DNA from: Methylobacter tundripaludum SV96
GTDB taxonomy: Bacteria > Pseudomonadota > Gammaproteobacteria > Methylococcales > Methylomonadaceae
Direction: 5' to 3'
DNA: 64,000 bases
Assembly (NCBI RefSeq): GCF_000190755.2
Contig: NZ_JH109152.1
Span: forward strand, 744,001-808,000
This document shows, in pieces, positions 12,881 to 31,053 of the stretch. Position numbers and translations under genes: made by a program. Each line of letters opens with the position of its first letter. Position 1 is the stretch's first letter. Below the pieces are notes generated by a model. That model was given only the letters and a program-made list of their open reading frames with translations, had not been told where the DNA came from and made no database searches.

Positions 12881-14041
12881 ATGATAAATATCAGTCAGCT
12901 TGTCCGTTTTATCACCGTTGATCCGGTAAACTTAAGCCTTAAGGGCAAGCTCCTATCTGTTATTTCCAGTTTCAGCAGCATTTTAATTATGGCGTTGGTT
13001 ACGCAGCAATTAAGTATCGGCACGGCTTATCCGATTATCGTTGCTTCCATGGGCGCTTCTGCGGTTATTTTATTTATTATCCCTAACAGCCCATTAGCGC
13101 AGCCCTGGTCATTTTTTGGCGGACAATTGGTATCCGCTATTATCGGTGTTGCTTGTGCCCAGTGGTTTACCGATATTGCTTTGGCATCGGCATGTGCGGT
13201 TGGAGGCAGTATTTTTGCCATGCTGTTGCTGCGTTGCCTGCATCCTCCCGGCGCTGCGACCGCGATGGCACCCATTCTGTCCGGCGACCCTATTAGTTCT
13301 CTGGGATATGGTTTTGTGCTGATGCCGGTGGGTATAAATGTGTTGATTATGTTGGTTATGGCGATATTCATTAACCGCTGGTTGTTACGACATGACTATC
13401 CAACCGTTTCCGGTAATAAAAACATCGTAGTTAAACCTGCTCAGCAAACCGGTATTTCGGATCAGGATTTGAAGCTGGCGCTGGAAAACATGGATATGTT
13501 TATGGATGTTTCGGCAGGAGATCTGCGTAAATTGCTTACCGATGCAGAGGCGCGGAGCTTTAAACGCTTTAAAGGCAATATCATCTGCGCGGATATTATG
13601 GTCAGGGATGTGCCGGTTGTTGAATACGGGACGGAAGTTGAAGAAGCCTGGAAAATCATGCATAAGCAAAAACTCAAAGCCATGCCGGTTATTGACAGGG
13701 CCAGACGGGTGATTGGCATCATTACCTGGAATGATTTTTTTAAATTTATTAATCTGAGTGCCTATGAAAGTTTCCAGGACAGGTTTCGGGCGTTTATACG
13801 TCGTACGCCGGATGTATCAACCGATAAACCGGAATCAGTCGGCCACATGATGACCACTTCGGTTACCGTATTGCCTGAAAGCGCCCATATCGCCGATCTT
13901 ATCTCCTTGATGTCGACCCAAGGCTACCGGCAGATTCCGATAGTGAACAGCGAAAATCGCCTAGTGGGCATGGTTTATCAGGCTAATCTAATCGCCGCAC
14001 TTTATGATGAACAATTGTCCTCCGTTGCCAGTCAATTGTAG
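12881..14041 (+). CDS. HPP family membrane protein with two CBS domains
   Basis: 386 residues. The N-terminal half has about four membrane helices and the family motif CLHPPGAATA; the C-terminal half carries a pair of CBS domains (from about residue 240: ADIMVRDVPVVEYGT... and GHMMTTSVTVLPESA...). HPP proteins have been linked to nitrite transport in chloroplasts and cyanobacteria; the CBS pair suggests control by a nucleotide. A GAGGGAAG motif lies upstream of the ATG. Substrate is not known from the sequence, and the neighbours give no clue. Confidence 0.88.
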   Translation: MINISQLVRFITVDPVNLSLKGKLLSVISSFSSILIMALVTQQLSIGTAYPIIVASMGASAVILFIIPNSPLAQPWSFFGGQLVSAIIGVACAQWFTDIALASACAVGGSIFAMLLLRCLHPPGAATAMAPILSGDPISSLGYGFVLMPVGINVLIMLVMAIFINRWLLRHDYPTVSGNKNIVVKPAQQTGISDQDLKLALENMDMFMDVSAGDLRKLLTDAEARSFKRFKGNIICADIMVRDVPVVEYGTEVEEAWKIMHKQKLKAMPVIDRARRVIGIITWNDFFKFINLSAYESFQDRFRAFIRRTPDVSTDKPESVGHMMTTSVTVLPESAHIADLISLMSTQGYRQIPIVNSENRLVGMVYQANLIAALYDEQLSSVASQL

Positions 14042-14106
14042 GCGCCCGATTAAACCTTTGGCAGAAAGTTGAGTACAATACCCGGCGCGCCTGCCAGGGC
14101 GGCTTC

Positions 14107-14652
14107 TTGGACTTCACGGTTTTTATTTTGATTATTAGAATTTCCCTGTTGTTGATTTTGGCTTCATTACCGGTATTTTTATTGGTGGAGCTGTTATTGC
14201 GGTTAGCCGTACCCGGTTTGCCCGGTGCGTTGACCCTGTTGGGAACGGCAATGCTGTTAAGCGCGTTTGCTGTGCTGATAATCGCCGGATTATTGGGCAT
14301 TTTTAAAATAATTATCCGCTCTGCTTTGGATTATTTTTCATCTAAACAACGGGTACAGCGGCGGTTGTGGTTTGTTCAGGCCAGGCAGGATCAGGTCAAG
14401 CGCTTGTTTCATTTTAAAGCCAGGCAAATAAAGTATTTTAATGAGCTCAGCAGAAAACGCCTGTTGAAGCTTAATAATCGCAAGCACATTCGGTCATTGT
14501 CCAAAGCCATCGATAAAGACCTGCTGTCGATCAAGGCAAAACTGCCGGGAACCACTTACCAGCAACTGCAACAAGACCATGCCCGCTATCGAAGCCGACA
14601 GGATGTTGAGGCGTTGTTAACATTGCAGCAAAAAATCTCCACCCTTGTTTAG
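14107..14652 (+). CDS. Uncharacterised protein with two membrane helices and a basic coiled tail
   Basis: 181 residues, not recognised. Two hydrophobic segments (about 4-32 and 38-65) are followed by a highly basic, helix-prone region rich in Lys, Arg and Gln. The likely start is TTG (MDFTVF) after an AGGGCGG motif; no ATG fits. It is followed 3 bases later by a second unknown gene, so the two probably work together. Function not proposed. Confidence 0.65.
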   Translation: MDFTVFILIIRISLLLILASLPVFLLVELLLRLAVPGLPGALTLLGTAMLLSAFAVLIIAGLLGIFKIIIRSALDYFSSKQRVQRRLWFVQARQDQVKRLFHFKARQIKYFNELSRKRLLKLNNRKHIRSLSKAIDKDLLSIKAKLPGTTYQQLQQDHARYRSRQDVEALLTLQQKISTLV

Positions 14653-14655
14653 TGC

Positions 14656-15177
14656 ATGACTATTTTAAATAAAATTATTAAGCTGTTTCATTCGGTTAAA
14701 GATGAAAACCTGAAATGGCAGCTGGCTAATCAGGGCGACCAGACCAAGCTCAAACACGCTCGCGTCCTGGCCGAGAAAGCCCTGGAAGCCGAATTAAAAA
14801 AGAAAAGCGTACAACTGGAGCATGACATCAGTTTGTTGAAGACTAAACATGACGCCGAACTGTCGATGTTTAAAACCAAGTGCAAGCAGGATGTTAAAGA
14901 CTATAAACAGTATCTGGCGGCGTTGGATCAACTTAAATCTTCAATTCAGGCCAGTTATACCCATCTGCCCGAGGCGGTCGCCTTCACCATTCATCATCAT
15001 GCGAAATATTTGTTGAATAAGATGTGGGAAGCTGAAGATTTTGAACAGAAAATGCAGCACGAGATGCAGTTAATCCTGTTTATGACCACCGTGCATGAAG
15101 ATGCGCGCTTGCATTTGGAAGGGGCGACTACGGATAATCTGCCGGAAAGAACGTTGAATTTGATTGGGCGGGAATAG
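14656..15177 (+). CDS. Uncharacterised coiled-coil protein
   Basis: 173 residues without signal peptide or membrane helix. The middle (about 25-95) is rich in Lys/Glu/Gln heptads and likely forms a coiled coil; the C-terminal part contains a HHHAKYLLNKMWEAEDFEQKM stretch with clustered His. It starts 3 bases after the membrane protein upstream. No family recognised. Confidence 0.7.
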   Translation: MTILNKIIKLFHSVKDENLKWQLANQGDQTKLKHARVLAEKALEAELKKKSVQLEHDISLLKTKHDAELSMFKTKCKQDVKDYKQYLAALDQLKSSIQASYTHLPEAVAFTIHHHAKYLLNKMWEAEDFEQKMQHEMQLILFMTTVHEDARLHLEGATTDNLPERTLNLIGRE

Positions 15178-15241
15178 AGATTCTACTGAGTGTAGATAGT
15201 CGATGAGTATTTACGCATAAGTATCTACGTAAGCCATAACG

Positions 15242-15360
15242 CCGTCATCCCGGCAGGGATGACGGGATCCAGAGCACAGGGCTGTGAAAAATACATCAAA
15301 AAACTGGTTTCAAATAGCTATAAATGTTTGAGAGTTGGGCGTTGCCATCCATGGCTGAAA
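15242..15360. repeat. CGTCATCCCGGCAGGG interspersed repeat, partial copy
   Basis: Begins CGTCATCCCGGCAGGGATGA and contains GCACAGGG and GCCATCCATGGC, the same order as the fuller copy at 36927-37073. The right inverted arm is missing here. It fills most of the gap between the coiled-coil gene and proS; the rest of that gap shows nothing. Confidence 0.7.
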
Positions 15361-15373
15361 ATACCAGTGCCTT

Positions 15374-17083
15374 TTAACCCAACTTCGCCTTCAAAAAATC
15401 AATAATATCCGCAAACGGGATTTCCTCGTTTGCTTCAGCCGTTCTGGCCTTGTATTCAACCGTGCCGGAATCCAGACCGCGGTCGCCAACAACGATACAA
15501 TGCGGGATGCCGATCAATTCCATGTCGGAAAACATAAACCCGGCGCGGACTTTCCTGTCATCGAATAACACATCGATTCCGGCCGCCAGCAAGTCCTGAT
15601 ACAACTTCTCCGAGGCCTCTTTCAGACGCTCCGATTTGTGCATGTTCATCGGGCACAGCGCGACCTGGAAAGGCGCAAGATTAGTCGGCCAGATGATGCC
15701 TTTATCGTCATGGTTCTGTTCGATCGCGGCGGCGACGACGCGGGAGATGCCGATACCGTAACAACCCATGGTCATGATCTGGTTTTTGCCGCCTTCGTTG
15801 ATGACGCCGGCTTTCATCGCTTCGCTGTACTTGGTGCCCAGCTGGAAGATATGGCCGACTTCAATGCCGCGAGCCAGCGTGATTTGACCTTTGCCGTCCG
15901 GGCTGGGGTCGCCTTCAACCACCATGCGCAGATCGGCAATGTGATCAGGAACAGGTAAATCGCGTTCCCAGTTGACGCCTTTATAATGCTTGTCGTCCTG
16001 GTTCGCGCCGCACACGAAGTTAGACATTAAAGTCACGCTTCGGTCGGCAATGATCTTGATGTTCAAGCCTATCGGGCCGATAGAGCCGGGTTTGCAGTTG
16101 CAGGCGTTGCCCACCTGCTCATCGCTGGCGAATTCAAGCGGGGAGGCGATGCCGTCGATTTTTATCGCTTTAATATCATTAAGGTTATGGTCGCCTCTTA
16201 ACAGCAGCGCAACCAGCGTGTCTTCTTCGCCTTTAACGATCAAAGTCTTGAGGCATTGCGTGGCGGGGATGTTTAAAAAACCGCAGACTTCTTCGATGCT
16301 GTGCTGGTTGGGCGTATCGATCAGCGTTAACGCTTCGGTAGCCGAACCGCGAGTACCGATCGGCATCACCGATTCGGCTTTTTCGACATTGGCGGCATAT
16401 TCGCTGTCGGTTGAGAACGCAATCGCATCTTCGCCGGAATCGGCCAACACATGGAATTCATGCGATACCGCGCCGCCTATAGAACCCGAGTCGGCGATTA
16501 CCGCGCGAAAATTTAATCCCAAATGATTAAAAATATTGGTATAAGCCTGATGCATCGCCTCGTAGGTGACCTGCAACGATTCATGATCCAAATGAAACGA
16601 ATAAGCGTCTTTCATGATGAATTCGCGCGAACGCATCACACCGAAACGGGGACGGATTTCATCGCGGAACTTGGATTGAATCTGGTAATAAGTGATAGGC
16701 AGTTGCTTGTAGCTTTTGATCTCGTTGCGCGCCAGATCGGTAATGATTTCTTCGTGCGTGGGGCCAAGGCAAAAATCGCGGTCATGACGGTCTTTTAACC
16801 GCGCCAGTTCCGGGCCGTATTGTTCCCAGCGTCCGGTTTCCTGCCACAGTTCGGCCGGTTGCAGACCGGGCATCAACACTTCCAGCGCCCCGGTTTTTTC
16901 CATTTCTTCGCGGGTGATTTTTTCGACCTTGCGCATGACCCGCAGCCCCAAGGGCAACCACGTGTAAAGACCTGCGGCCAGTTTGCGGATCAGCCCGGCG
17001 CGGATCATCAATTGATGGCTGGCTATTTCAGCATCGGCCGGAGTTTCTTTAACGGTATTGAGCGGGAATTGAGTAGTACGCAT
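15374..17083 (-). CDS. proS: Prolyl-tRNA synthetase
   Basis: 569 residues, the length of the bacterial type with an editing (INS) domain. Class II motifs are present: motif 2 near [18 protein letters not shown] and motif 3 near [11 protein letters not shown]. The central part (about 220-400) matches the editing domain. Charges tRNA(Pro) in the cytoplasm. It stands alone on the minus strand. Confidence 0.98.
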
Positions 17084-17369: not shown

Positions 17370-18428
17370 ATGCTTAAAGGATTACCTTTGGAATATACAG
17401 CGGATATTTTAATTGTCGATGATACATTGGCTAACTTGCAGCTATTATCGACCCTGTTAAAGGAAGAGGGCTATAAAGTACGGCCTGCTAACAATGGCGC
17501 TATGGCATTACAAGCGGTTGCTACAAAAAAGCCGGACTTGATTCTGCTGGATATTAAAATGCCTGAAATGAGTGGTTATGAAGTCTGTACGGCGTTAAAA
17601 GATAACCCTGAAACAAAAAATATTCCTGTGTTATTTATCAGTGCATTAAATGATGTTACCGATAAAATCCAAGCTTTTAATGTGGGCGCTCTTGATTATA
17701 TTAATAAGCCTTTTCAATTTGAAGAAGTAAAGGCTCGTGTTGCTACCCATTTGCAATTAAAAGCCTATGAAGATGATATGGAAGCAAGAATAGCTTTTAG
17801 CATCCATGAAATTGAGGTTTTGAATCAGGAAATCATTGATACTCAGCAAGAACTTATTTTTACCATGGGGCAGATTTGTGAAACCCGTTCTCATGAAACG
17901 GGATTGCATGTAAAACGTGTCGCAGAATATTCGTATTTATTGGCAAAATTATATGGTTATGAAGATCTGGAGCTGATAAAACAAGCCGCTTCCATGCACG
18001 ACATCGGCAAAGTGGCTATTCCAGATAGTATTTTGAATAAACCAGGAGAATTAACCGCTGAAGAATGGAAGATTATGAAAACTCACAGTCATTTGGGTTT
18101 TCAGATGCTCAGTGTGTCACAACGCCCGTTATTTAAATTGGCGGCGACTATTACTTTGGAACATCATGAAAAATGGGACGGTACCGGCTATCCCTCCGGT
18201 CTTAAAGGCGAAGAAATCAGTGTGGCAGGACGTATTACCGCTGTTGCCGATGTGTTTGATGCACTGGGGGCCATACGATGTTATAAGCCTGCGAAGAGTC
18301 TGGACAAAATTTTAGAGATTTTTCAACAAGAAAAAGGCAAGCATTTTGATCCGGATATGGTTACGCTGTTTTTTGATCATTTGGATGACTTTATTGCTAT
18401 TCGAAATAAATACACTCAATATGAATAG
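17370..18428 (+). CDS. Response regulator with HD-GYP domain (probable c-di-GMP phosphodiesterase)
   Basis: 352 residues from the ATG of MLKGLPLEY. A receiver domain (about 10-125) has the acidic pair IVDD, phosphoacceptor Asp in LLDIKMPEMSG and the Lys of NKPF. After a short helix comes an HD-GYP domain (about 170-345) with HDIGKVAIPD, HHEKWDGTGYP and the GYP residues intact, so hydrolysis of c-di-GMP is likely. Earlier in-frame starts at 17316 and 17331 lack ribosome sites, and a later TTG at 17389 is possible. It starts the cluster with the corrinoid genes, 9 bases before the next gene. Confidence 0.88.
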   Translation: MLKGLPLEYTADILIVDDTLANLQLLSTLLKEEGYKVRPANNGAMALQAVATKKPDLILLDIKMPEMSGYEVCTALKDNPETKNIPVLFISALNDVTDKIQAFNVGALDYINKPFQFEEVKARVATHLQLKAYEDDMEARIAFSIHEIEVLNQEIIDTQQELIFTMGQICETRSHETGLHVKRVAEYSYLLAKLYGYEDLELIKQAASMHDIGKVAIPDSILNKPGELTAEEWKIMKTHSHLGFQMLSVSQRPLFKLAATITLEHHEKWDGTGYPSGLKGEEISVAGRITAVADVFDALGAIRCYKPAKSLDKILEIFQQEKGKHFDPDMVTLFFDHLDDFIAIRNKYTQYE

Positions 18429-18437
18429 CAAACAACA

Positions 18438-20000
18438 ATGTTCATACTTTCGGTTAACTTAAACCATCGGCACCTCGCCGATATTACCTTCACATCGCCT
18501 TGCAACTTATTCAACTTGTTGGCAACGTACGAGCATACGCGGGTGCGTTCAGCGTGTCAGGGTAAAGGTACATGCGGTCTGTGTCAGGTGCGTATCGACC
18601 AAGGCGCGGCCAGTGGGTTGACGCAGTATGAACAGAAACATCTTAGCGCCGGGCAAATCGCCCAAGGCATTCGTCTCGCCTGTCAGATGACGTTGATTGA
18701 TCACGCAAGTGTTAGCCTCATTAATCCGCTGACTATCGAAGCGCTGGATACTTTAAGCATTCATTCGCCGTTAGTAACGGCGAATGCCCGCTATGCTGTG
18801 GCCGTTGATTTGGGTTCAACGCAAGTACGCATCAGTCTTTGGGATAGCGTGCATCAGCGGCGTATCGCGGGGTATTGCGGATTTAATCCGCAAACCTACT
18901 ACGGCACGGATATACTGAATCGATTGACCGCCGCTACGACGGATAAAAGCGCTGGTCCGGCGATGAGCGAGTTGATACAGGACACGGTAGAGCGGGTGGT
19001 GACGGAGTGGATAGACACTAAAAAGTTGGCTGTTACGGAAATTTTGCTGGTCGGCAATACCGCTATGTTGGCATTGCTAGCCAACAAGCATGCTGAACAA
19101 TTATTGCAACCCGCGTATTGGACGCAAGCCGTCGATTGTACTTTAAACTTTTCAACATTGCGGCAAACGCAAATCCCTATTGCGTCTGTTCAGCCGGTAG
19201 CCGGTTTTGTCGGCTCCGATCTATTGGTTGGCATACTGGCCGTAGGTTTAATGCACAGTCCGGGCAGTGCGTTGTTTATTGATTTCGGCACCAATACCGA
19301 AATAGCCTTGTGGCATCAGAACAGATTATGGATCACTTCCGTCCCCGGCGGCCCTGCGTTTGAAGGCTGCGGCATTAGCTGCGGTGTTGCCGCCGAACAG
19401 GGGGCGATTAGCCATGTTAACTATGATGCCGCGACAGGAGAGTTTCACGGTGCATTGATCGGCACATTGATCGATACAAGCGAGATTAAAGGATTATGCG
19501 GTTCGGGTTTGTGCGATGTGATGGCCTGTTTGCTGGAATCGGGACAGTTGAAAAAAAACGGTCGTTTTGCCAAAGCGGTTTCCGAATTGGAAATCGAGTT
19601 AGTCAATTTGCATTATCGTGTTACTGTTAAAAAACAGGATATTGATATTTTTCAACGTGCCAAAGCGGCTACAGGTGCCGGTATTAGTAAACTGCTTAGC
19701 ATCGCAGGGGCGTCATCGGCAGATTTAACACGGCTATGTATTGCGGGCTCTTTTGGGCAGTTCTTAAATATTCAACATGCTCAAGCCATAGGTTTATTAC
19801 CGGGTTGTGCGCCTGAAAGAGTCGAATTGTGCGGTAATGCCGCGTTAATGGGTTGTGAACAATTGCTTTCCAGCCCGAATCGCGATGAACAATTAAATGA
19901 ATTGAAGCGCTATGTTGAAATGGTTAATTTGTCGCAAGTCAGCACTTATGAAGAAGTCTTTGTCGATAATCTTTATTTACAGCCGATGCCGTTAGCTTAA
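18438..20000 (+). CDS. Ferredoxin-ASKHA protein, probable corrinoid reductive activator (RACo-like)
   Basis: 520 residues. The N-terminal domain has the 2Fe-2S plant-type ferredoxin pattern C40-x5-C46-x2-C49-x32-C82. From about residue 115 it matches the DUF4445/ASKHA ATPase part of RACo/RamA-related proteins: VAVDLGSTQVR, FIDFGTNTEIAL, GPAFEGCGISCG and the GSGLCD loop. Such proteins use ATP hydrolysis to drive reduction of inactive Co(II) corrinoid to Co(I). At 520 residues it is shorter than many activators, which often have a linker domain. The corrinoid protein and methyltransferase follow immediately. Confidence 0.88.
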   Translation: MFILSVNLNHRHLADITFTSPCNLFNLLATYEHTRVRSACQGKGTCGLCQVRIDQGAASGLTQYEQKHLSAGQIAQGIRLACQMTLIDHASVSLINPLTIEALDTLSIHSPLVTANARYAVAVDLGSTQVRISLWDSVHQRRIAGYCGFNPQTYYGTDILNRLTAATTDKSAGPAMSELIQDTVERVVTEWIDTKKLAVTEILLVGNTAMLALLANKHAEQLLQPAYWTQAVDCTLNFSTLRQTQIPIASVQPVAGFVGSDLLVGILAVGLMHSPGSALFIDFGTNTEIALWHQNRLWITSVPGGPAFEGCGISCGVAAEQGAISHVNYDAATGEFHGALIGTLIDTSEIKGLCGSGLCDVMACLLESGQLKKNGRFAKAVSELEIELVNLHYRVTVKKQDIDIFQRAKAATGAGISKLLSIAGASSADLTRLCIAGSFGQFLNIQHAQAIGLLPGCAPERVELCGNAALMGCEQLLSSPNRDEQLNELKRYVEMVNLSQVSTYEEVFVDNLYLQPMPLA

Positions 20001-20011
20001 CTGAGAATTTT

Positions 20012-20680
20012 ATGATACTGGAAAAAGTTATCGCAGCTTACAGCGAAGCCGTTTTTGACACGGATCGCGATAAAGCATTCGAAGTCATTCACGAAGCAAT
20101 CGCCCAGGGCGTTACCCCTGAGGACATTGTTTTTAAGGTGGTAATTCCTTCGATGGAGCAGATGATTAAAGCCATCAGTGAAGATTTCGATGCCAATCTT
20201 GCCCAACATTTCATGGCTTCGCAAATCGCTTCCCAAGTCACCGATGAAATGGTCGCGCAGTTTCAAACAAGCCCGGAAACTATTGGCCGCGTAGTCATCG
20301 GCACATCACACGGCGATATGCATACGTTGGGCAAACGCATCGTCAGCGGTTGCTTGCGTTCGTTGATGATTGATGTGATTGATTTAGGCGTCAATGTCAG
20401 TGCCGAGCGCTTTGTCGATACCGCGCTGGAACAGGATGCCGGCATTATCGCCATTTCCTCGATGATGGTGCATACCGCCCGTAGTGAATACAGTTGTCTT
20501 GCCGTGCGGGAATTGCTTAAACAACGCCGGTTGGAAGACCGCATTAAAATCATTGTCGGCGGCGCACCTTATACATGGGATAGGGAGCTTTACAAAGTCG
20601 TACAAGCTGATGCGTGGGCAAGTGACGGTATTTCAGCAGGCAAAGTCATTAAGGATTTGATCATGGAGATGCACAAATGA
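20012..20680 (+). CDS. Corrinoid-binding protein (MtaC/MtbC/MttC-like)
   Basis: 222 residues: a four-helix cap domain (about 1-90) and a Rossmann-like B12-binding domain. The cobalt-coordinating signature D-x-H-x-x-G is present as D102, H104 and G107; the ISSMM and IVGGAPYT segments match the corrinoid tail pocket. It carries a methyl group between two methyltransferases in known systems. It starts 11 bases after the activator gene and its stop overlaps the next start (ATGA), so all three are probably co-translated. Confidence 0.9.
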   Translation: MILEKVIAAYSEAVFDTDRDKAFEVIHEAIAQGVTPEDIVFKVVIPSMEQMIKAISEDFDANLAQHFMASQIASQVTDEMVAQFQTSPETIGRVVIGTSHGDMHTLGKRIVSGCLRSLMIDVIDLGVNVSAERFVDTALEQDAGIIAISSMMVHTARSEYSCLAVRELLKQRRLEDRIKIIVGGAPYTWDRELYKVVQADAWASDGISAGKVIKDLIMEMHK

Positions 20681-21705
20681 TTACTGGAATGGATAGATTG
20701 GTCGCGGCAATAAAGGGCGAAAAGGCGGACCGGATTCCCGTGTTTTGCAATTTATTGGATCAAGGCGTTAAAGAGTTGGGCTTGGCTTCTCTGCATGATT
20801 ATTATCAACTGGGCGAGTATGTTGCCGAAGGGCAGCTGAAAATGCGCGAGAAATACGGCTACGATAATGTGTGGAGCCTGTTTTATGTCGGCAAAGAAGC
20901 GGAATTATTGGGTTGCCGAAAGATATTGTTTTCGCCTGACGGCCCGCCTAATGTTGAGCATTTTGTTATCCAGTCTTATGACGATATTCACAACCTGGAA
21001 ATTCCGGACGATATTATCCATCACCCCGTTTTTGCCGAAGAATTGAAATGCCTGCAAATCCTGAAGCGGGAAGTCGGCGGGCGTTATCCGATTTGCGGCT
21101 ATGTGACAGCTAGTATGGCATTGCCCGCCTTGTTAATGGGCATGGATAAATGGTTTGAATTATTATTCATGGGACCGCCGGACGTGCGTGATGAGTTATT
21201 AGCCAAATGTTCGTTATTTTGTCAGCGCCATATCGCCGCCTTGAGGGAATTAGGCGTCGATGTAATCGTCTATGCCAATCCGTTCGGTTCTACCGATTTC
21301 GTGCCGCTGCCATATATCATCAAAACCGGCATGCCGTGGATGAAACAAGATTTAAGCGCAGGCACACAAGGCATCGTCTATTACTGTGGCGGAGCGCGGT
21401 TTAATCAGGTCATTGAATCTGTTATTTCGCAAATCGGCATAGAAACTTATTATTTAAGTCCCCTGGATGATATTGCGACAGGCAAGCAAATCATCAACGG
21501 CCGCGGCCTGACCTGTGGCGTTATCAATGATATTAAACTCATTGATTGGTCGGAAGAGCAAATCAGGCAAGAAGTAAAACGCATGTTGGCGGCGGGTATG
21601 GCGGGGAATAAATTTCTTTTCGGCACGATTTTAATGCCGTATAAAATCCCTGAACGCAATATTCGGGCGATGTTGGATGCCGTTTATGAATTCGGGCAAT
21701 TTTAA
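20677..21705 (+). CDS. URO-D family corrinoid methyltransferase (MtaA/MtbA/CmuA-like) with altered zinc site
   Basis: 342 residues, uroporphyrinogen decarboxylase superfamily (DRIPVFCNLLDQ near the start, then the TIM barrel). Its place right after a corrinoid protein marks it as a corrinoid-dependent methyltransferase, not HemE. MtaA-type enzymes bind zinc through His-x-Cys and a late Cys. Here the first site reads Y235-Y236-C237, and the late Cys position (near G316-T317) has no Cys, although C280 is close by. The enzyme may use a different thiol acceptor, a rebuilt metal site or a signalling role. It overlaps the corrinoid gene by 4 bases. Confidence 0.85.
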   Translation: MITGMDRLVAAIKGEKADRIPVFCNLLDQGVKELGLASLHDYYQLGEYVAEGQLKMREKYGYDNVWSLFYVGKEAELLGCRKILFSPDGPPNVEHFVIQSYDDIHNLEIPDDIIHHPVFAEELKCLQILKREVGGRYPICGYVTASMALPALLMGMDKWFELLFMGPPDVRDELLAKCSLFCQRHIAALRELGVDVIVYANPFGSTDFVPLPYIIKTGMPWMKQDLSAGTQGIVYYCGGARFNQVIESVISQIGIETYYLSPLDDIATGKQIINGRGLTCGVINDIKLIDWSEEQIRQEVKRMLAAGMAGNKFLFGTILMPYKIPERNIRAMLDAVYEFGQF

Positions 21706-21748
21706 TTGTTCAGCCACGGATTATGCAGATGGACATTATCAAGAGTGA

Positions 21749-21831
21749 GGCAAAAGGCGAAAGACGAAAGGCTAAGTGCGGGCGTGTTGACGCTCGGATT
21801 TTTTCGCCTTTAGCCCTGTGCCTTTCGCCTT
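21749..21831. repeat. Interspersed inverted repeat (GGCGAAAG family), copy 3
   Basis: Arms AAAGGCGAAAGACGAAAGGC and GCCTTTCGCC pair across a GC-rich loop between the methyltransferase and DUF1638 genes, both on the plus strand. It could reduce read-through within the cluster. Confidence 0.8.
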
Positions 21832-21858
21832 ATCTGTCGATCTGCGGCTGAATTGTAA

Positions 21859-22455
21859 ATGTCACCATCAACACTAAACCTGGTCGGCTGCGGCATTTTG
21901 CAAAAAGAAGTGGGCTATTTAATTGCAAAAAATAACTGGCCATTGGCCACGGATTTTTTGCCCGCTTCGTTGCACATTGACTTTAAACGCTTGGCCTGCG
22001 CTTTACAGGCAGGTTTAGCCAGGCATGCGGATGAACAAACCATCGTCTTTTACGGGGCCTGCCATCCGGGAATGGATAAGATGCTGAATGATGGCCGTAC
22101 TCTGCGAACATCGGGACAAAACTGTATTGAAATGCTGCTAGGCGCGGAAGAATTTAATCGGGAACTGACTCAAGGTGCGTTCTTTTTATTGGATGATTGG
22201 GTGCGCAATTGGGATGCCGTTATTGCCAAGACATTCGGTTCGAATATCGCCGTTATTCGCGATATTTTCCATGACCAGCACCGCTATCTGTTGTGCCTGC
22301 GCACACCGCAATCCGGTGATTTCAGCCGGGAAGCCGCGCACATCGGCGCCATGCTGGATTTGCCGGTGCAATGGCGAGATGTGACCTTGGATCATCTCGA
22401 AAGCGTTGTACACACCGCCATCAGGCATAAATTGGATAGCTTGCATGCCCAATGA
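21859..22455 (+). CDS. DUF1638 protein
   Basis: 198 residues matching DUF1638 by its pattern: VGCGILQKEV near the start, FLPASLHID, VFYGACHP, QNCIEMLLG and FFLLDDWVRNW. Members often lie beside corrinoid methyltransferase genes in methanogens and acetogens, but no reaction is established. Three conserved-looking Cys (in GCG, GACHP, QNC) might bind a metal or corrinoid (inference). Its last bases overlap the start of the hybrid kinase gene, so it belongs to the same cluster. Confidence 0.82.
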   Translation: MSPSTLNLVGCGILQKEVGYLIAKNNWPLATDFLPASLHIDFKRLACALQAGLARHADEQTIVFYGACHPGMDKMLNDGRTLRTSGQNCIEMLLGAEEFNRELTQGAFFLLDDWVRNWDAVIAKTFGSNIAVIRDIFHDQHRYLLCLRTPQSGDFSREAAHIGAMLDLPVQWRDVTLDHLESVVHTAIRHKLDSLHAQ

Positions 22456-24466
22456 ACTAATGACCATCCCCGTTGCCGAGTGGAACAAACTCAAACAGCG
22501 CGCCACCAAACTCGCCTTGGATAAATCCAATCAACAACTGGTCATGCAGTTGATGAGTAAAATGAGTGAAGCCTCAGGATTGGAAAATGTCATCGATAAT
22601 ATGCTGCGTTCGATTGTCGATGTCATCGGTGGGGCTAACCTGATCCTGTATTACAAAATCGATGCGGATATTTTCTATGCCGATGTGTATGGCGTGAAAA
22701 AACACCTGCAACAACTGGATGATGAGTGCGTTATCAGCGCTTTCGCCACAGGCGATGCCAGCGAATATGAGCATGATTTTAGTGATACCCAGATGCTGAC
22801 ACCTGCTTTCACTCATGCGTACACATGGATTTATCCGCTCAAAGTCGGTTCGACGGTGATCGGCGTGTTCAAAATGGAAAGCCTGCATATCGCCATGCGC
22901 GATTTGTATGCCCAATTGCCGCTGTTCTTTAATTACGCCGCGCTGGTATTAAAGAATGAAATTCTCGGATATACCCGTTTACAAAACGTCAATAACTTAT
23001 TGCAGCAAGAAATTATTATTCGTAAGCAAACAGAGCAAAAATTATTAGCGGCAAAAAATGAAGCGGAAGCGGCGAATCGCGCCAAAAGTATCTTCTTGGC
23101 TAACATGAGTCATGAATTACGCACCCCGATGAATGCCGTGTTGGGATTTTCGCAGTTAATGCAAAAAGACAGCGATCTTAGCCCTGAACAACGTGAAACC
23201 CTGAACATTATCAACAACAGCGGTAAACATTTACTGGAGTTGATTAATGATGTGTTGGATATGGCGAAAATTGAAGCGGGGCGTGTAATCGTTGAAAACG
23301 GTAATTTCGATTTAGGCGCGCTTATTCGCGACACCATTGACATGATGCACCAACGCGCCGAAGCCAAAGGATTAGAATTGTTCCTGGATCAATCGTCCAG
23401 TTTTCCGCGATTTGTTAATAGCGATGAAGCAAAATTCCGGCAGATTTTGCTTAACTTGGTTGGCAATGCCATTAAATACACGCAAAAAGGTCGCGTTATT
23501 GTGCTCTTAACGGCTGAAAATTTGCCCGATACTCAGCAATGCCTCTTAATCTGCGAGATAAAAGATACCGGTATCGGCATTGCCAAGCAGGATTTGCCGT
23601 TTATTTTCGATACGTTTGTACAAGTCGGCAGGGAATCCGATCAACAAGGCAGCGGTTTAGGGCTGCGGATTACCAAACAATATGCTGAATTAATGGGCGG
23701 GCAAGTTACCGTTACCAGTGAATTGAATAAAGGATCATCGTTTATCTTAACGTTACCTGCTGCCAAGGTCGACCAGTCAGAGATTATCAACAAAACCGTT
23801 CTCGATGGTAAGCAGGTGCTGGGATTAGCGGCGGGACAGCCTGAGTATCGTGTCTTGATTGTTGAGGATCAACTGGAAAATCGGCTGTTGCTGAAAAGGT
23901 TGATGGAATTCGTCGGTTTTCAGGTGCGTGAAGCGGTAAATGGTCAGCAAGGCGTAGAACAATTTATGCATTGGCAGCCGCATTTTATTTGGATGGACAG
24001 ACGCATGCCCATTATGGATGGCATCGTCGCCACGCAAAAAATTCGCGCTTTGCCCGGTGGCGATAAAGTGAAAATTGTTGCCGTCACCGCATCGATTTTT
24101 GCAGAACAACGGCAAGAGTTTTTAAATTCAGGTATCGATGATATTGTCGGCAAGCCCTATCGTGATGCCGAGATTTTCGACTGCATGGCAAAACATTTAG
24201 GTGTGCAGTTTATTTACGACGAGCTGGTTAATGAGAAAAGGGCGACTGAGCAATCGCTTAATGAGCAGTGCTTGAAACAGCTACCCGAGTCGCTATTGTC
24301 CGAATTGCAGCAAGCGGCCATGAGTTTGGATATAGAGCAAAGTCTAGCGGTGATTGAACAAATTAGAGCGATTGACGCACCTTTTGCCGAAGTGCTGAAG
24401 GAACGGGTCAATCAATTCGATTTTGAAGTGATTACTAAATTGCTATGTAATGCCGACTTTTCATAA
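22445..24466 (+). CDS. GAF-domain hybrid histidine kinase with receiver
   Basis: 673 residues, no membrane helix, so a cytoplasmic sensor. Order: GAF-like domain (about 35-175), coiled linker, HisKA with phosphoacceptor H223 in MSHELRTPMN, HATPase with NLVGNAIKYT, DTGIGIA and GSGLGLRIT, then a receiver with LIVEDQ and WMDRRMPIMDG. The start overlaps the DUF1638 gene by 11 bases; a second ATG at 22460 is possible. Context suggests it senses something tied to the corrinoid module and may pass phosphate to the HD-GYP regulator at the other end of the cluster (inference). Confidence 0.9.
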   Translation: MPNELMTIPVAEWNKLKQRATKLALDKSNQQLVMQLMSKMSEASGLENVIDNMLRSIVDVIGGANLILYYKIDADIFYADVYGVKKHLQQLDDECVISAFATGDASEYEHDFSDTQMLTPAFTHAYTWIYPLKVGSTVIGVFKMESLHIAMRDLYAQLPLFFNYAALVLKNEILGYTRLQNVNNLLQQEIIIRKQTEQKLLAAKNEAEAANRAKSIFLANMSHELRTPMNAVLGFSQLMQKDSDLSPEQRETLNIINNSGKHLLELINDVLDMAKIEAGRVIVENGNFDLGALIRDTIDMMHQRAEAKGLELFLDQSSSFPRFVNSDEAKFRQILLNLVGNAIKYTQKGRVIVLLTAENLPDTQQCLLICEIKDTGIGIAKQDLPFIFDTFVQVGRESDQQGSGLGLRITKQYAELMGGQVTVTSELNKGSSFILTLPAAKVDQSEIINKTVLDGKQVLGLAAGQPEYRVLIVEDQLENRLLLKRLMEFVGFQVREAVNGQQGVEQFMHWQPHFIWMDRRMPIMDGIVATQKIRALPGGDKVKIVAVTASIFAEQRQEFLNSGIDDIVGKPYRDAEIFDCMAKHLGVQFIYDELVNEKRATEQSLNEQCLKQLPESLLSELQQAAMSLDIEQSLAVIEQIRAIDAPFAEVLKERVNQFDFEVITKLLCNADFS

Positions 24467-24479
24467 TGGGTAGGGGGGC

Positions 24480-26456
24480 TCATAGAGCATGGCCCCTTTT
24501 TGATTCCTTTGTTTCGTACATTGCGATATCGGAATAATGCAACAGCGTTTTAGCGTCGGTTCCATGGTCGGGATACATGCTTATTCCGGCGCTTACGCCA
24601 ATTTCGATATCGTAATCGTCAATACGGTAAGCCTTATCTATTGCATCGGTAATCTGGCTAAGTAGTTTCTCTACCATCTTCCGGCTGGTAACATTCTCCA
24701 GCAATATGACGAATTCATCTCCGCCCAATCGGGTGACAGTGTCGGTTTCGCGGACGCTACGAGTGAGTCTATCAGCAACTTTCTGCAATAGCCGATCTCC
24801 GATCTTATGCCCGAAAAGATCGTTAACCGGTTTGAATTTGTCTAAATCCAGAAATAAGATAGCAAATTGGGTATTGTTGCGCATGGCCACTTTAATGGCC
24901 TGTTCAAGCCGGTCATTAAACAGCACCCGATTAGCCAAGCCGGTCAAAGGGTCATGGTAAGCGATATGACGCAGATGCTCTTCTTCCGCCTTGCGTTCGG
25001 AAATATCCGACATGATGGCGACATAATGCGTGAGTTGGTTGTCGGTGTTTTTTACCTGGTTAATGCTGGCTCTCATCGGTATTAAGGTGCCGTTTTTCAT
25101 CCGATCAATAATATCGCCCTGCCATTGGCCGCTTGCATTGAGCGACTCCCACATTCGGTTATATTCTTCGCCGGTGGTATAACCTGATTGCAAGATTGAC
25201 GGAGGCTGGCCTAATAATTCGCTCTCATCATATCCGGTCATCGCGCAAAATGCTTGATTGACCGAAACGATACGCGCCGATGAATCCGTAATCAAAATCC
25301 CATCGCTGCTGCCGGCAAAAACCGTTGCCGCCAACTTTAACTGTTGCTCCGCTTTTTTGCGTTCGCTCAGGTCCATCACATAGGCAATGCCTTGTTCCTG
25401 ATTGCCGCCGAGCATCGCCGCGCCAATATAGATCGGCACCCAGTGCCCCTGTTTATGGATCAAGGCTTTCTCGAAAGGCTCGCACCGGCCATGTGTTAAA
25501 AGCTCATTGATGACTTGTTGATCCCGGTGCTGAAATTCAACCGGCGTAATATCCCGCCAGTTGATGACGCCGGTCGAAATATCCGACCGGTCATAGCCGA
25601 TCATGGTTAAAAAGAGATCGTTCGCCTCCTCGATCATACCATCCATCCGCCAGGAAATAATGCCGATCGTATTCGACTCCTTGAGCCGGCGAAACCGTGA
25701 TTCGCTAGTAATCAGTTGCTGTTCCGCTTGGGTGATCCCTTTGATTATCTGACGGCTGACCCATAGCCCGATACCGATAAAGATAACCAGTACCAGCACC
25801 GTAATTAGCCATACCGTTTGTTTAACCCATCTTGCCCCTTCACTCAGGATTAGTGAAAAGCGATTTTCCAGTTGATGAAGTTCATCATTGAGATGCTGCA
25901 AGCGATTTCTCAATTCGGCTATTTTTTCGGTGTTTTGCTTTGATGCGTTGATTTCGATGCGAATTTGCTCACTTAGTTGCTTCAATTCGTCGATGGTTTG
26001 ATCGGCAGATTGCCATGTAGAGATTGCATCGCGCATATAGGAAATGCGCTGGAATGTTAAAAAGAACCCGATCATTGAATCGATATCGTCAGGGTGGTTT
26101 TGTCCCTGCAAAAAGCCGTTTCTCGCTTCCTCGTAGTTCGGTGGGAATGCCAATAATGCCAACCGGGCATTTTTATCGCCGCTGGTGACCTTTAGAGCTT
26201 CCTGATAAGCGATGTAGTCGGTTTCTGAATGACTGTACGAATAACTGCCCAGATAGAATACGGCATCCTTTTGCGCCTTGGCCCACAAACCTTCGCCCCT
26301 AACATAGGAGCGCACGCCGTCGAAAATATTGCCATACCCAAAAATCATCCCACCCAGCAATACTGAAATCAGTACGAACAGGGAAATAATAAAAACAACT
26401 TTTCCTTCGGTGGAAAATGCCGGAAGTCTCAGCCTGTGTTTTTTATGGGTTACCAT
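24480..26456 (-). CDS. Membrane diguanylate cyclase with two PAS domains
   Basis: 658 residues. A membrane helix (about 18-40), a long periplasmic helical domain, a second helix (about 212-232), two PAS/PAC units (about 248-370 and 372-490) and a C-terminal GGDEF domain. The active motif is LGGDEF and an inhibitory RETD site lies five residues before it. No EAL domain. It should make c-di-GMP in response to periplasmic and cytoplasmic signals. It converges on the hybrid kinase gene with 13 bases between stops, putting both making (GGDEF) and breaking (HD-GYP) of c-di-GMP at the corrinoid locus. Confidence 0.92.
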   Translation of the reverse strand: MVTHKKHRLRLPAFSTEGKVVFIISLFVLISVLLGGMIFGYGNIFDGVRSYVRGEGLWAKAQKDAVFYLGSYSYSHSETDYIAYQEALKVTSGDKNARLALLAFPPNYEEARNGFLQGQNHPDDIDSMIGFFLTFQRISYMRDAISTWQSADQTIDELKQLSEQIRIEINASKQNTEKIAELRNRLQHLNDELHQLENRFSLILSEGARWVKQTVWLITVLVLVIFIGIGLWVSRQIIKGITQAEQQLITSESRFRRLKESNTIGIISWRMDGMIEEANDLFLTMIGYDRSDISTGVINWRDITPVEFQHRDQQVINELLTHGRCEPFEKALIHKQGHWVPIYIGAAMLGGNQEQGIAYVMDLSERKKAEQQLKLAATVFAGSSDGILITDSSARIVSVNQAFCAMTGYDESELLGQPPSILQSGYTTGEEYNRMWESLNASGQWQGDIIDRMKNGTLIPMRASINQVKNTDNQLTHYVAIMSDISERKAEEEHLRHIAYHDPLTGLANRVLFNDRLEQAIKVAMRNNTQFAILFLDLDKFKPVNDLFGHKIGDRLLQKVADRLTRSVRETDTVTRLGGDEFVILLENVTSRKMVEKLLSQITDAIDKAYRIDDYDIEIGVSAGISMYPDHGTDAKTLLHYSDIAMYETKESKRGHAL

Positions 26457-28711: not shown

Positions 28712-30577
28712 TTACCTTGTAACTGTAACCTTGCCGCTCTCGATTTTGATTTTGTATTCACATTCACACTTTGCTTTGCCCTCGTATTGGGCGCTAGTTT
28801 CCAATAATTTGTGCCTACTTTTGTCCAAGAAGGGTTCGCCGCAGTAAGGGCAAAGAAGTATCACACCAATTCCAATAAGGCTATCCCATTCAGCTAAACA
28901 ACGATTCAGAACTTCTTTAATATCCTTCGAGAAATCTTTCTCATCGTCACCCTTTTTCAGCGGATAATAAAAATTGATCTTATCCGATTTAGAATCAACA
29001 ATATCAATATCAACATCAGTGCTTTGCAATAGTTCCGTCTTCTCTGAAAAGGCCAATTCTCCCGATATCGTATATCTGTCCCATTCCTGTAATACATCCA
29101 CCAAAACCCCCAAAAAAGCGAGTGGATCGTCGTCAAGACTGATTTTCGGATATCCATTTTTGCTGTATTTCTTGCAACTTTTTTCATAATATTTTTGTTG
29201 AATTACATCATGAATTGCGATTGATGCTGTTGCCCAGAGCACTTTATTAAACCAGCGTTCCGGGCTGAGGCCGTCTCTTATACTCATCTCTATTGGAACG
29301 TATTGCTCGATAATTTGGCGTTGGGTGTCATCATAGATTTGTTTCGATACGCAATTGATATGATTCTTTTCTTTATTTTGTTTGTATTCAAACTTTTCCC
29401 AGTTGAGTAGATCAAATCCCCACACAAATTCGTGATAAAACGTCAAAGCTTGTAACACAATTAGTCCACTGCAGACACCATGATTAAGGTTTTTAAAGCC
29501 CTGGTTGGAGCCTTTGCTCATTGCATCGTAGTATTCCTCCTTCACAATCTTCAGTATGGTTTGCATTGTGGTTGTGGAATTTTTTTTATAGGTTTCATAG
29601 TACATGTTCCAGATAGAGAAAGCCTCGCGATTTAAACCATACTGATTCTTTATTGCCTCGTTATTAAGCGCTTTGAACCCGTCGCGTTCCATGAGTTTTT
29701 TTCTAATATTCTCACAACCTCCAATGTCGCAAAGACGGTCGCCAAGGGAGGCTAAGGACTGTGAGTTTTTAAAATCAGGAACCGAAACATCGAGGAGATT
29801 AGCAATATTCTGCGCGGCCCTATAATCAACCCTAAAATGTTCCCAAAAATAATGATTAAAATAATCGTGGACTACTTTTGCCCCCCTAATGACTCGAACG
29901 TTTTCCACTTCAGGGCTGGCTGAAGAAATAGTACCCTCGAAAATATAACCTACATCATGAAGCAAACTCGTAATAGACCAAACATCTCCAAATTCATTCG
30001 CCAGAGCAATAGATTCATCTTTTTCGCCTATTTTGCCGAATTCATCAGGAGCTTCATTCTCGTAGAATTCATGCTCCTTTTCCGTTAATGTAAAAAAGTC
30101 ATGCGTAGTTACATACTCATTACCATAAATAGTTTTCTGCTGATTAATTAAATACTGCTTAAATTTGTCTTGAAATTTTTCAGATGTATCAAAAATATAC
30201 CATCCCAGTATGTAGTTATAAAGCGTATGGACTGCGTGATCCCGTTGCATGTCATAATCAATATCTGCCGCAACTTCTCTTTTGGATGCAGCCTCTCTAA
30301 AGTATGCAAGCGTATGATTGCCTGATATCCATAATGCGTATCTTGAAAAGGCATTTGCCTTCTTTAAGCGTACTTCATCCAATGTTGCCTCAAAAAAATC
30401 ATTCAAATGCTTGTGGATTACACCGTCCTTTTTTACCGTAAGAAAAGGTACATCTTTCCAATTTTCTTTATCTTTATTTAGTGAATTGATCCTTTTTGGA
30501 TTGTGATACCAATAAAACCATGTCTCTTGATCCTTCACGTATTCAAAAAGCGTCTTTTTTGCTGTTTGATCTGTCAT
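28712..30577 (-). CDS. Uncharacterised protein with HD-like domains and a C-terminal zinc ribbon
   Basis: 621 residues, AT-rich, no signal peptide. HD-superfamily patterns appear twice: first HAVHTLYNYILGW, then SLLHDVGYIFEG; later NHGVCSGLIVLQ, ASIAIHDV and DPLAFLGVLVDVLQEWDR, which is a H...HD...D arrangement. The tail has CPYCG and CEC as a likely zinc ribbon. HD proteins are usually phosphohydrolases, but the target here is unknown. The start is the second ATG, 9 bases after GAGG. It stands alone among repeats with atypical composition, so recent transfer, perhaps a defence role, is possible but unproven. Confidence 0.65.
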   Translation of the reverse strand: MTDQTAKKTLFEYVKDQETWFYWYHNPKRINSLNKDKENWKDVPFLTVKKDGVIHKHLNDFFEATLDEVRLKKANAFSRYALWISGNHTLAYFREAASKREVAADIDYDMQRDHAVHTLYNYILGWYIFDTSEKFQDKFKQYLINQQKTIYGNEYVTTHDFFTLTEKEHEFYENEAPDEFGKIGEKDESIALANEFGDVWSITSLLHDVGYIFEGTISSASPEVENVRVIRGAKVVHDYFNHYFWEHFRVDYRAAQNIANLLDVSVPDFKNSQSLASLGDRLCDIGGCENIRKKLMERDGFKALNNEAIKNQYGLNREAFSIWNMYYETYKKNSTTTMQTILKIVKEEYYDAMSKGSNQGFKNLNHGVCSGLIVLQALTFYHEFVWGFDLLNWEKFEYKQNKEKNHINCVSKQIYDDTQRQIIEQYVPIEMSIRDGLSPERWFNKVLWATASIAIHDVIQQKYYEKSCKKYSKNGYPKISLDDDPLAFLGVLVDVLQEWDRYTISGELAFSEKTELLQSTDVDIDIVDSKSDKINFYYPLKKGDDEKDFSKDIKEVLNRCLAEWDSLIGIGVILLCPYCGEPFLDKSRHKLLETSAQYEGKAKCECEYKIKIESGKVTVTR

Positions 30578-31053
30578 ATAATTCATCCTCGTTTAGGAAT
30601 TATCAAAAGCTACAAAACACAATGTTATGTCAATCAAGTTGAAGAGGTTAGGCCGATCAGACGGCGGTGTCTGTACGAGAGCGCACATAGTGATGCGGCC
30701 GTAGGTTAGGCTGAATGTAATGAAGCCCAACAATTCACCGCTCGCCGCAGGTAATATATTCAAGAGCAAGATTGCTTGCCCAATGCCCAAGCGGGACGAA
30801 TCAATGGGGTCAGATTAAATTGATTGGGGATCAGCTAATTAAAATCAACGACACTGACCCCATTGATTCCCTGACCCCATTGATTCCGATAAGACTATTC
30901 TGAGCGTAGCCGAAGGGCTCAAGGCGAACGGTTAAGCCTCCCGGCTGTTCACAAGAGATTCAGGCAATTCGAGGGGCTGTGACGCTGGCTTTGTGCTGCG
31001 CATTTCCCCCTTTTTCCTCTTGCTTGCTTGCTATGTTAATCTAGCCGGACGAT
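30578..31053. other. Gene-free repeat-rich stretch
   Basis: Contains a GTAGGTTAGGCTGAATG-type repeat near 30703, the GGGGTCA element at 30801-30886, a GAGCGTAGCCGAAGGGCTC repeat near 30900 and the left part of the 830-bp duplication from about 30896. Short frames here follow repeat sequence and are not considered genes. Confidence 0.7.
30801..30886. repeat. GGGGTCA inverted-repeat element, copy 1
   Basis: TCAATGGGGTCAG and CTGACCCCATTGA form perfect 13-base inverted ends about 66 bases apart, followed by an extra half copy of the right end. The interior contains GGATCAGCTAATTAAAATC, shared with copy 2 at 35878-35936. Ends of this type are common around REP-associated elements; no transposase is present. 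Confidence 0.85.

Follow-up and report, generated by a model that had tools for sequence, protein, structure and literature searches.

A corrinoid methyl-transfer cassette predicted to act as a receptor on cyclic di-GMP in Methylobacter tundripaludum SV96

Known corrinoid systems and the locus described here

The B12 photoreceptors (CarH) and the methyl-transfer sensor Ada use a corrinoid or a protein-borne methyl group as a signal, but they are single-protein regulators with no separate methyltransferase, activator or kinase. The locus described here, in which such separate parts appear to serve signalling, lies in a 64,000-nt stretch (the window) of contig NZ_JH109152.1 of Methylobacter tundripaludum SV96, which has a genome of 4.85 Mb in three contigs. 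Its six genes encode an HD-GYP response regulator, a reductive activator of corrinoid proteins (RACo), a corrinoid protein (CP), a URO-D-family methyltransferase homologue, a DUF1638 protein and a hybrid histidine kinase (Table 1). We predict that the cassette encodes a corrinoid methyl-transfer receptor, acting in the window on cyclic di-GMP (c-di-GMP), and put the probability of this reading at roughly 0.6.

Type 1 mlp clusters and MtaA/MtbA also bring together a URO-D-family methyltransferase, a CP and a Ram/RACE activator and, in the excerpted text of the source, no tetrahydrofolate methylase (PMC10418091). The type 1 mlp clusters have several Mlps each, are confined to obligate anaerobes and, save for some Mlp1, keep a His-Cys-Cys triad; the same excerpts name no histidine kinase or DUF1638 protein in them (PMC10418091). 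The window system differs in its single URO-D protein without the triad, in its signalling outputs, and in occurring also in aerobic methanotrophs. The chloromethane system CdmBCA and related O-demethylase systems share a URO-D-family MT1 methyltransferase, a CP and an activator with the window, and CdmB is zinc-free, but those systems are metabolic, with an MTII (CdmA) (PMC13222342, in excerpt). The window URO-D has a weak match to CdmB (E 1e-4).

In the split methionine synthase and glycine-betaine demethylation of Phaeobacter and Ruegeria, a CP, DUF1638 and a RACo-type activator cooperate (excerpts of PMC5764234 and PMC12478193). DUF1638 and a RamA-like protein are required for methionine synthesis in Phaeobacter, with no specific role proposed for DUF1638 in the excerpted text (PMC5764234), and both kinds of protein rise in Ruegeria on N-osmolytes (PMC12478193, in excerpt). 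There, unlike in the window, the role is methyl metabolism, and the comparable loci of our class sample have no URO-D and no signalling genes nearby. On the output side, two-component and c-di-GMP systems with GAF input have similar GAF-HisKA-HATPase-receiver kinases and HD-GYP or GGDEF-EAL regulators, but the GAF family of this module is tied to a corrinoid methyltransferase cassette. Each component protein family is known, and the input side is without a described counterpart in the literature searched. No description of a corrinoid-methyltransferase signalling system was found among the matches listed, from open PubMed Central papers; PMC12316311, in excerpt, has only a mention of MttB.

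Conservation of the cassette with signalling genes

Within the order Methylococcales, a search with the window DUF1638 matched 29 of 151 genomes, and in 26 of these the match had an E-value of at most 1e-58. Twenty-six loci of the window's lineage (class A) were fetched from 25 other genomes. An unbroken CP-URO-D-DUF1638 run is found in 23 of them; of the other three, L038 and L048 are truncated where their contigs stop, and L059 is without URO-D. A kinase gene lies 3' of the run in 22 of the 23 intact loci (in L043 it is upstream of RACo), and RACo lies 5' of CP in 22, the exception being L039. The gene order is conserved beyond chance. Identity between the window and L036 is 95% for URO-D, 91% for CP and 83% for RACo. 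The response regulators that adjoin cassettes in the order have HD-GYP or GGDEF-EAL domains, with a different case in L043: there a receiver is fused to a carbohydrate (glycogen) phosphorylase domain (13130-16015, minus strand), next to the corrinoid cassette and a PAS hybrid kinase. L059:3861-9842 is a second copy in its genome (G074), with a dCache-HAMP-PAS hybrid kinase.

A URO-D profile built from 16 class A sequences gave 140 candidate stretches in genome contigs, 117 of which were confirmed relatives; the best 80 of these 117 are referred to as the named loci. The relatives come mostly from metagenome-assembled genomes, so single phylum assignments may err. Ten phyla are labelled in the URO-D tree, namely Pseudomonadota, Thermodesulfobacteriota, Chloroflexota, Verrucomicrobiota, Hydrogenedentota, Acidobacteriota, Myxococcota, Ignavibacteriota, Nitrospirota and Bacteroidota. 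Class A forms one side of a branch with support 100/98, and the root is unsure because the HemE row is a very long branch. Methylococcales are placed at several points of the tree, which suggests horizontal transfer. Plasmid records gave one distant match.

CP is encoded immediately 5' of URO-D in 79 of the 80 named loci, and in seven (L136, L137, L139, L141, L142, L144, L146) the two form one open reading frame (ORF). DUF1638 lies 3' of URO-D in 69, and RACo is present within the fetched stretch in 51. Sequence of 2.5 kb or more downstream of URO-D is available for 73 named loci, and in 66 of them a kinase, receiver, GGDEF, EAL or HD-GYP match lies within 6 kb on the same strand. No such match was obtained for L106, L107, L109, L113, L119, L127 and L140. 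Six of these seven have the N-terminal domain described below: L107 and L119 encode proteins of about 2,400 aa whose HD-GYP or kinase part comes last, and in L106, L109, L113 and L127 the contig ends within the ORF. For comparison, a class-wide search fetched 28 loci, of which 21 are without URO-D, two belong to class A and five to a diverged lineage, class B. CP is present in 20 of the 21 loci without URO-D, and L076 has RACo and DUF1638 only; signalling matches were found in none of the 21 (either strand, fetched stretches of 5.7-15 kb).

The preliminary description of the window had placed the corrinoid genes with the signalling genes and had named conservation of the gene order as a test; these counts bear it out. 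It had also proposed c-di-GMP as the output. A c-di-GMP domain does occur within 8 kb in 34 of the 80 named loci, but many loci have only kinase and receiver domains, and c-di-GMP is at most a candidate for a general output. The counts strongly disfavour an accidental association, in which unrelated genes are neighbours by chance or hitch-hike together. In its favour, genomes of this kind are rich in signalling genes, and genes that travel together as neighbours also give correlated distances; the same order over ten phyla, the exclusivity of the N-terminal domain, 11 fusion proteins and the 0/21 of the comparison loci make it very improbable. The comparative evidence argues strongly that the corrinoid proteins belong to a signalling system, for which we infer the mechanism given further below.

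The private GAF-fold domain and the outputs

The kinase of the window begins with a domain (NTD, for N-terminal domain) of about 200 residues that is common to the N-termini of 67 predicted proteins of the named loci. It follows URO-D directly in 62 of the 73 loci with sufficient downstream sequence; among the other 11, L116 has two NTDs slightly further on, and none was found in the remaining ten. A single NTD family heads kinases, GGDEF, GGDEF-EAL and HD-GYP proteins. In 72 frame matches, the part after the NTD in the same ORF is a kinase with receiver (30), a kinase (26), GGDEF/EAL (4), HD-GYP (1), or is absent or truncated (11). The proteins of about 2,400 aa (L107:10059-17351 and L119:10617-17843) have the NTD first, long PAS/GAF arrays, and HD-GYP or kinase last. 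In four loci the NTD kinase is replaced by kinases with a PF25487 (ETR1_N, ethylene-receptor-like) N-terminal domain (L136:4277-5110, L137:10650-12551, L139:10649-12541, L144:10693-14082).

The NTD of the window kinase has no Pfam match, GAF included, so the earlier label of a GAF hybrid kinase does not hold by Pfam. It regains ground through weak GAF-model matches in the NTDs of 19-23 of 54 relatives and through the structural model (pLDDT 86), which matches the GAF domain of PDE5A with a Foldseek probability of 1.00 (E 6.4e-7). The predicted structure supports a GAF fold, with weak backing from the sequence profile.

In the order, the NTD occurs in 26 of 151 genomes at E up to 1e-10, in one copy each, and all copies are at a CP-URO-D cassette. 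Twenty-four adjoin a DUF1638 gene, and two (G140, G045) adjoin URO-D with no DUF1638 match. DUF1638 is therefore dispensable, and the core consists of CP, URO-D and the NTD output. Two genomes of the order have strong DUF1638 matches but no NTD, G112 (with a PAS kinase) and G061.

Taken pairwise, URO-D distances correlate with those of CP (r 0.76, 80 loci), DUF1638 (0.78, 69), NTD (0.76, 67) and RACo (0.89, 50), but only at 0.39 (63 loci) with those of the nearest downstream kinase core, which sometimes belongs to another protein than the NTD and may be saturated to a higher degree. NTD and kinase core correlate at 0.51 (54 loci). None of 500 permutations reached any of these values, as would be expected of linked genes; the information lies in the contrast between them. 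The corrinoid side is probably read by the private GAF domain and DUF1638.

The active site of URO-D

The closest solved relative of the window URO-D by sequence is MtaA (4ay7). At the columns that we take to be the MtaA zinc ligands (His-x-Cys ... Cys), the His is replaced in all 81 class A sequences (Tyr 80, Phe 1), 67 of the 81 retain the first Cys, and the second gives way to Thr (73), Asn (5), Ser (2) or a gap (1). The class B rows, in which the register is less sure, likewise have neither Cys. Other pocket residues are near-invariant, with Y199 and D285 in 81/81 and C24, Y70 and C140 in 80 plus one gap. With these columns and the DxHxxG motif of CP kept, the proteins look functional.

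S-methyltransferases of the UroD superfamily bind zinc through His-Cys-Cys, and O-methyltransferases vary (PMC10418091, in excerpt). CdmB is a zinc-free member of the superfamily that is active on chloromethane (excerpts of PMC13222342); the loss of the triad therefore speaks against thiol methylation and not against all methyl transfer. Zinc-dependent methylation of a thiol of the coenzyme M type is disfavoured on this ground.

It is also conceivable that the same proteins, with the same output coupling, sense the redox state of the corrinoid (oxygen or reductant supply), light, or a ligand held in a catalytically dead URO-D. The lost triad fits this, as does a reductive activator present at 51 of the 80 named loci, and B12-based photoreceptors such as CarH are known. 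The near-invariance of the URO-D pocket over ten phyla suggests a specific ligand instead, and CdmB is an active methyltransferase of the family despite being zinc-free (PMC13222342, in excerpt). This explanation, the main alternative in detail, appears unlikely, though it is the strongest of the rivals.

DUF1638 fusions, class B and metabolic partners

The AlphaFold2 model of the window DUF1638 (pLDDT 94) has an alternating alpha/beta fold; no structural relatives were found at E 0.001, and the sequence has no match in PDB at E 5. In relatives, 11 fusion proteins join DUF1638 to kinase, GGDEF or PAS parts (Table 1). Most are from class B, where a DUF1638 with attached output parts comes after CP and URO-D. 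Four of them (L062, L063, L095, L179) score 22.5-25.4 bits, under the 27-bit Pfam cut-off for DUF1638. The DUF1638 proteins of classes A and B are clearly homologous (hhalign probability 98.1%, E 7.7e-14), with L062, L063 and L179 among the aligned rows and L095 not. A GAF-like middle domain in class B is only suggestive (hhalign probability 37.6%, E 3.4e-4, 6 sequences). Regulators adjoining class B include receiver-GGDEF (L095) and receiver-HD-GYP (L094) proteins. The class B locus L093 is cut by a contig end. A class-B-like DUF1638 with no CP or URO-D match in the fetched stretch is present in L061 and L064; in L061 a receiver-PAS-GGDEF gene adjoins it.

L180, on plasmid pAZKH of Azoarcus sp. 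KH32C (record positions 248000-297000), has a class B cassette inside a methanol-oxidation island with genes for a pyrroloquinoline quinone (PQQ) methanol/ethanol dehydrogenase, Fae, Fhc, Mch and RuBisCO. This plasmid prompted the idea of a methanol sensor linked to methylotrophy, which is not supported as a rule: Fae was found in none of the five genomes of the class sample that have class B (G218, G261, G348, G367, G381), against 49 of 369 genomes overall. Among class A genomes from beyond the order, Fae is present in G362 but absent from G266. Comparison of the island genes with the other loci examined (flanks of about 9 kb or less) gave one specific methylotrophy match, fae in L160; the HD, sigma-54 and YncE matches were not specific.

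Corrinoid methyltransferase operons often have regulators nearby. The cassette could likewise be an ordinary corrinoid demethylase, with the adjoining kinases governing its expression or the behaviour of the cell towards its substrate. The Azoarcus island fits this, and MT1 enzymes of the URO-D family exist (OdmB, VdmB, CdmB; excerpts of PMC10418091 and PMC13222342), so the window URO-D could itself be one. The preliminary description had seen no MT1 in the cassette; MttB and MtaB indeed gave no match at E 0.001 in the genome of the strain, but the statement has to be qualified for URO-D. As regards an acceptor, the cassette has no methyltransferase for this role. PF00809, the pterin-binding family, occurs in this genome only in MetH and in a 304-aa protein that is probably FolP, so that no dedicated pterin acceptor enzyme was found (MtrH, PF02007, was not searched). 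The genome has one RACo, one URO-D besides HemE, and B12-binding_2 at three places, one of them MetH. Reactivation of methionine synthase is an unlikely role for the cassette here, as MetH carries its own reactivation domain (PF02965). The demethylase explanation is further opposed by the absence of Fae from the class B genomes of the sample, by the window outputs, in which Pfam finds no DNA-binding domain, by an NTD that in the order is exclusive to the cassette and tracks URO-D and not the kinase core, and by the fusion of DUF1638 to outputs. It is the main alternative in kind, and we regard it as improbable, a little more so than redox, light or ligand sensing.

Proposed mechanism and points against it

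In the receptor that we propose, RACo would keep the cobalt of CP as reactive Co(I) with ATP and reducing power, as is known for the family. The URO-D barrel would form a specific, probably zinc-free pocket and move the methyl group of a small donor to CP. CP, alone or with URO-D, may then contact DUF1638 and the NTD of the output protein, as adjacency, exclusivity, fusions and co-divergence suggest. The GAF domain and coiled coil would switch the attached kinase or cyclase, and the window kinase would phosphorylate the HD-GYP regulator, leading to a change in c-di-GMP. No dedicated methyl-accepting enzyme was found in the cassette or among the PF00809 proteins of the genome, so methyl-CP would serve as a readout instead of an intermediate of metabolism.

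Extended to the family, this would be a new class of chemoreceptor with the corrinoid methyltransferase apparatus as ligand sensor: a zinc-free URO-D would methylate a dedicated B12 protein, a private GAF domain would read this, often via DUF1638, and the kinase and c-di-GMP outputs would be interchangeable. It would have spread horizontally over at least ten phyla, with reader and output in one protein in class B. For this broader proposal we see about even odds.

Several observations weigh against the receptor. Adjacency alone cannot separate a sensor from a catabolic cassette with a regulator, and URO-D, having lost the triad, may have ceased to be an enzyme. RACo (51/80) and DUF1638 (69/80) are both optional, by counts made at the locus only. 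L059 has RACo, CP, DUF1638 and a kinase but no URO-D, L082 has four corrinoid-side genes and no output beside them, and in L140 the only signalling neighbour is a convergent GGDEF gene. A clade of about ten loci has kinases without the NTD. In its simple form the proposal also meets the observation that the sample shows no tie between class B and methylotrophy.

Features of the window

The six genes are on the same strand, as the preliminary description had them, with spacings of 9, 11, -4, 153 and -11 bases. In the HD-GYP regulator, the receiver Asp and the HD/HHE..DGTGYP motifs are intact by motif check, and its gene also adjoins the cassette in congeners. Raco_middle, RACo_C_ter and a 2Fe-2S ferredoxin domain are above the Pfam cut-offs in the activator, with the cysteine motif intact; its 245.6 bits to the AcsV model are far under the 800-bit cut-off. 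The DxHxxG motif of CP reads DMHTLG and is kept in the CP of 79 of the 80 named loci; CP scores 97.8 bits against TIGR02370 (methyltransferase corrinoid protein), under the curated cut-off of 215.3 bits. URO-D has 136.6 bits in PF01208 (cut-off 23.9) and 79.4 bits against TIGR01463 (MtaA/CmuA methyltransferase), under the curated 235.4 bits. For the kinase, the ATG at 22445 is preferred as the start, the longest ORF beginning at a TTG at 22406; the H-box is intact.

The gap before DUF1638, described earlier as filled by a palindrome, does fold strongly (z -5.46), but it falls away as a part of the module. It has 23 matches across the genome, itself included, and is about 18 bases in the congener L039; it is therefore a dispersed repeat. 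A regulatory RNA is rejected for the same reason. The convergent GGDEF gene noted earlier is present with an intact motif, but its orthologues were seen in same-genus loci only (L036, L039, L097, and a fragment in L038). Further along the window, 28712-30586 (minus strand) encodes a 624-aa protein with no Pfam match at E 0.001.

Table 1. Features of the window cassette and its surroundings, and DUF1638 fusion proteins of related loci
Feature	Position or loci	Strand	Evidence or class
Receiver-HD-GYP response regulator, candidate c-di-GMP phosphodiesterase output	17370..18428	+	Pfam Response_reg and HD_5; motifs; congeners
Ferredoxin-ASKHA reductive activator of corrinoid protein (RACo/DUF4445)	18438..20000	+	Pfam Fer2, Raco_middle, RACo_C_ter
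Corrinoid protein (CP), B12-binding cap and domain	20012..20680	+	Pfam PF02607, PF02310; DxHxxG
URO-D-family methyltransferase homologue without the MtaA His-Cys-Cys triad	20677..21705	+	Pfam PF01208; 4ay7 MtaA; column counts
Dispersed palindromic repeat, like repetitive extragenic palindromic (REP) or miniature inverted-repeat transposable (MITE) elements; not a functional part	21706..21858		Genome matches; fold z
DUF1638 protein, alternating alpha/beta fold, candidate CP-output coupler	21859..22455	+	Pfam PF07796; AlphaFold2; fusions in relatives
Hybrid histidine kinase: GAF-fold N-terminal domain, HisKA, HATPase, receiver	22445..24466	+	Pfam; NTD family; fold
Private GAF-fold NTD of the kinase, common to the output proteins of the module	22445..23056	+	Alignments; model
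Membrane PAS-PAS-GGDEF diguanylate cyclase, convergent	24480..26456	-	Pfam; GGDEF motif intact; congeners; module membership uncertain
DUF1638-PAS-GGDEF fusions	L062, L063, L066		Class B
DUF1638-kinase-part fusions	L060, L065, L092, L094, L095, Azoarcus L179		Class B
DUF1638-PAS fusion	L091		Class B
DUF1638-NTD-kinase fusion	L128		Class A

Implications

Corrinoid methyltransferases have so far been known as metabolic machines, and here they are candidate receptors. If the receptor is real, bacteria would sense methyl donors, or the state of a corrinoid, by chemistry and not by simple binding, and such sensing would span methanotrophs, iron cyclers and many uncultured lineages. DUF1638 would have a likely role in signalling, and the GAF subfamily would serve as a marker of the system. 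A link between one-carbon chemistry and c-di-GMP would become directly testable.

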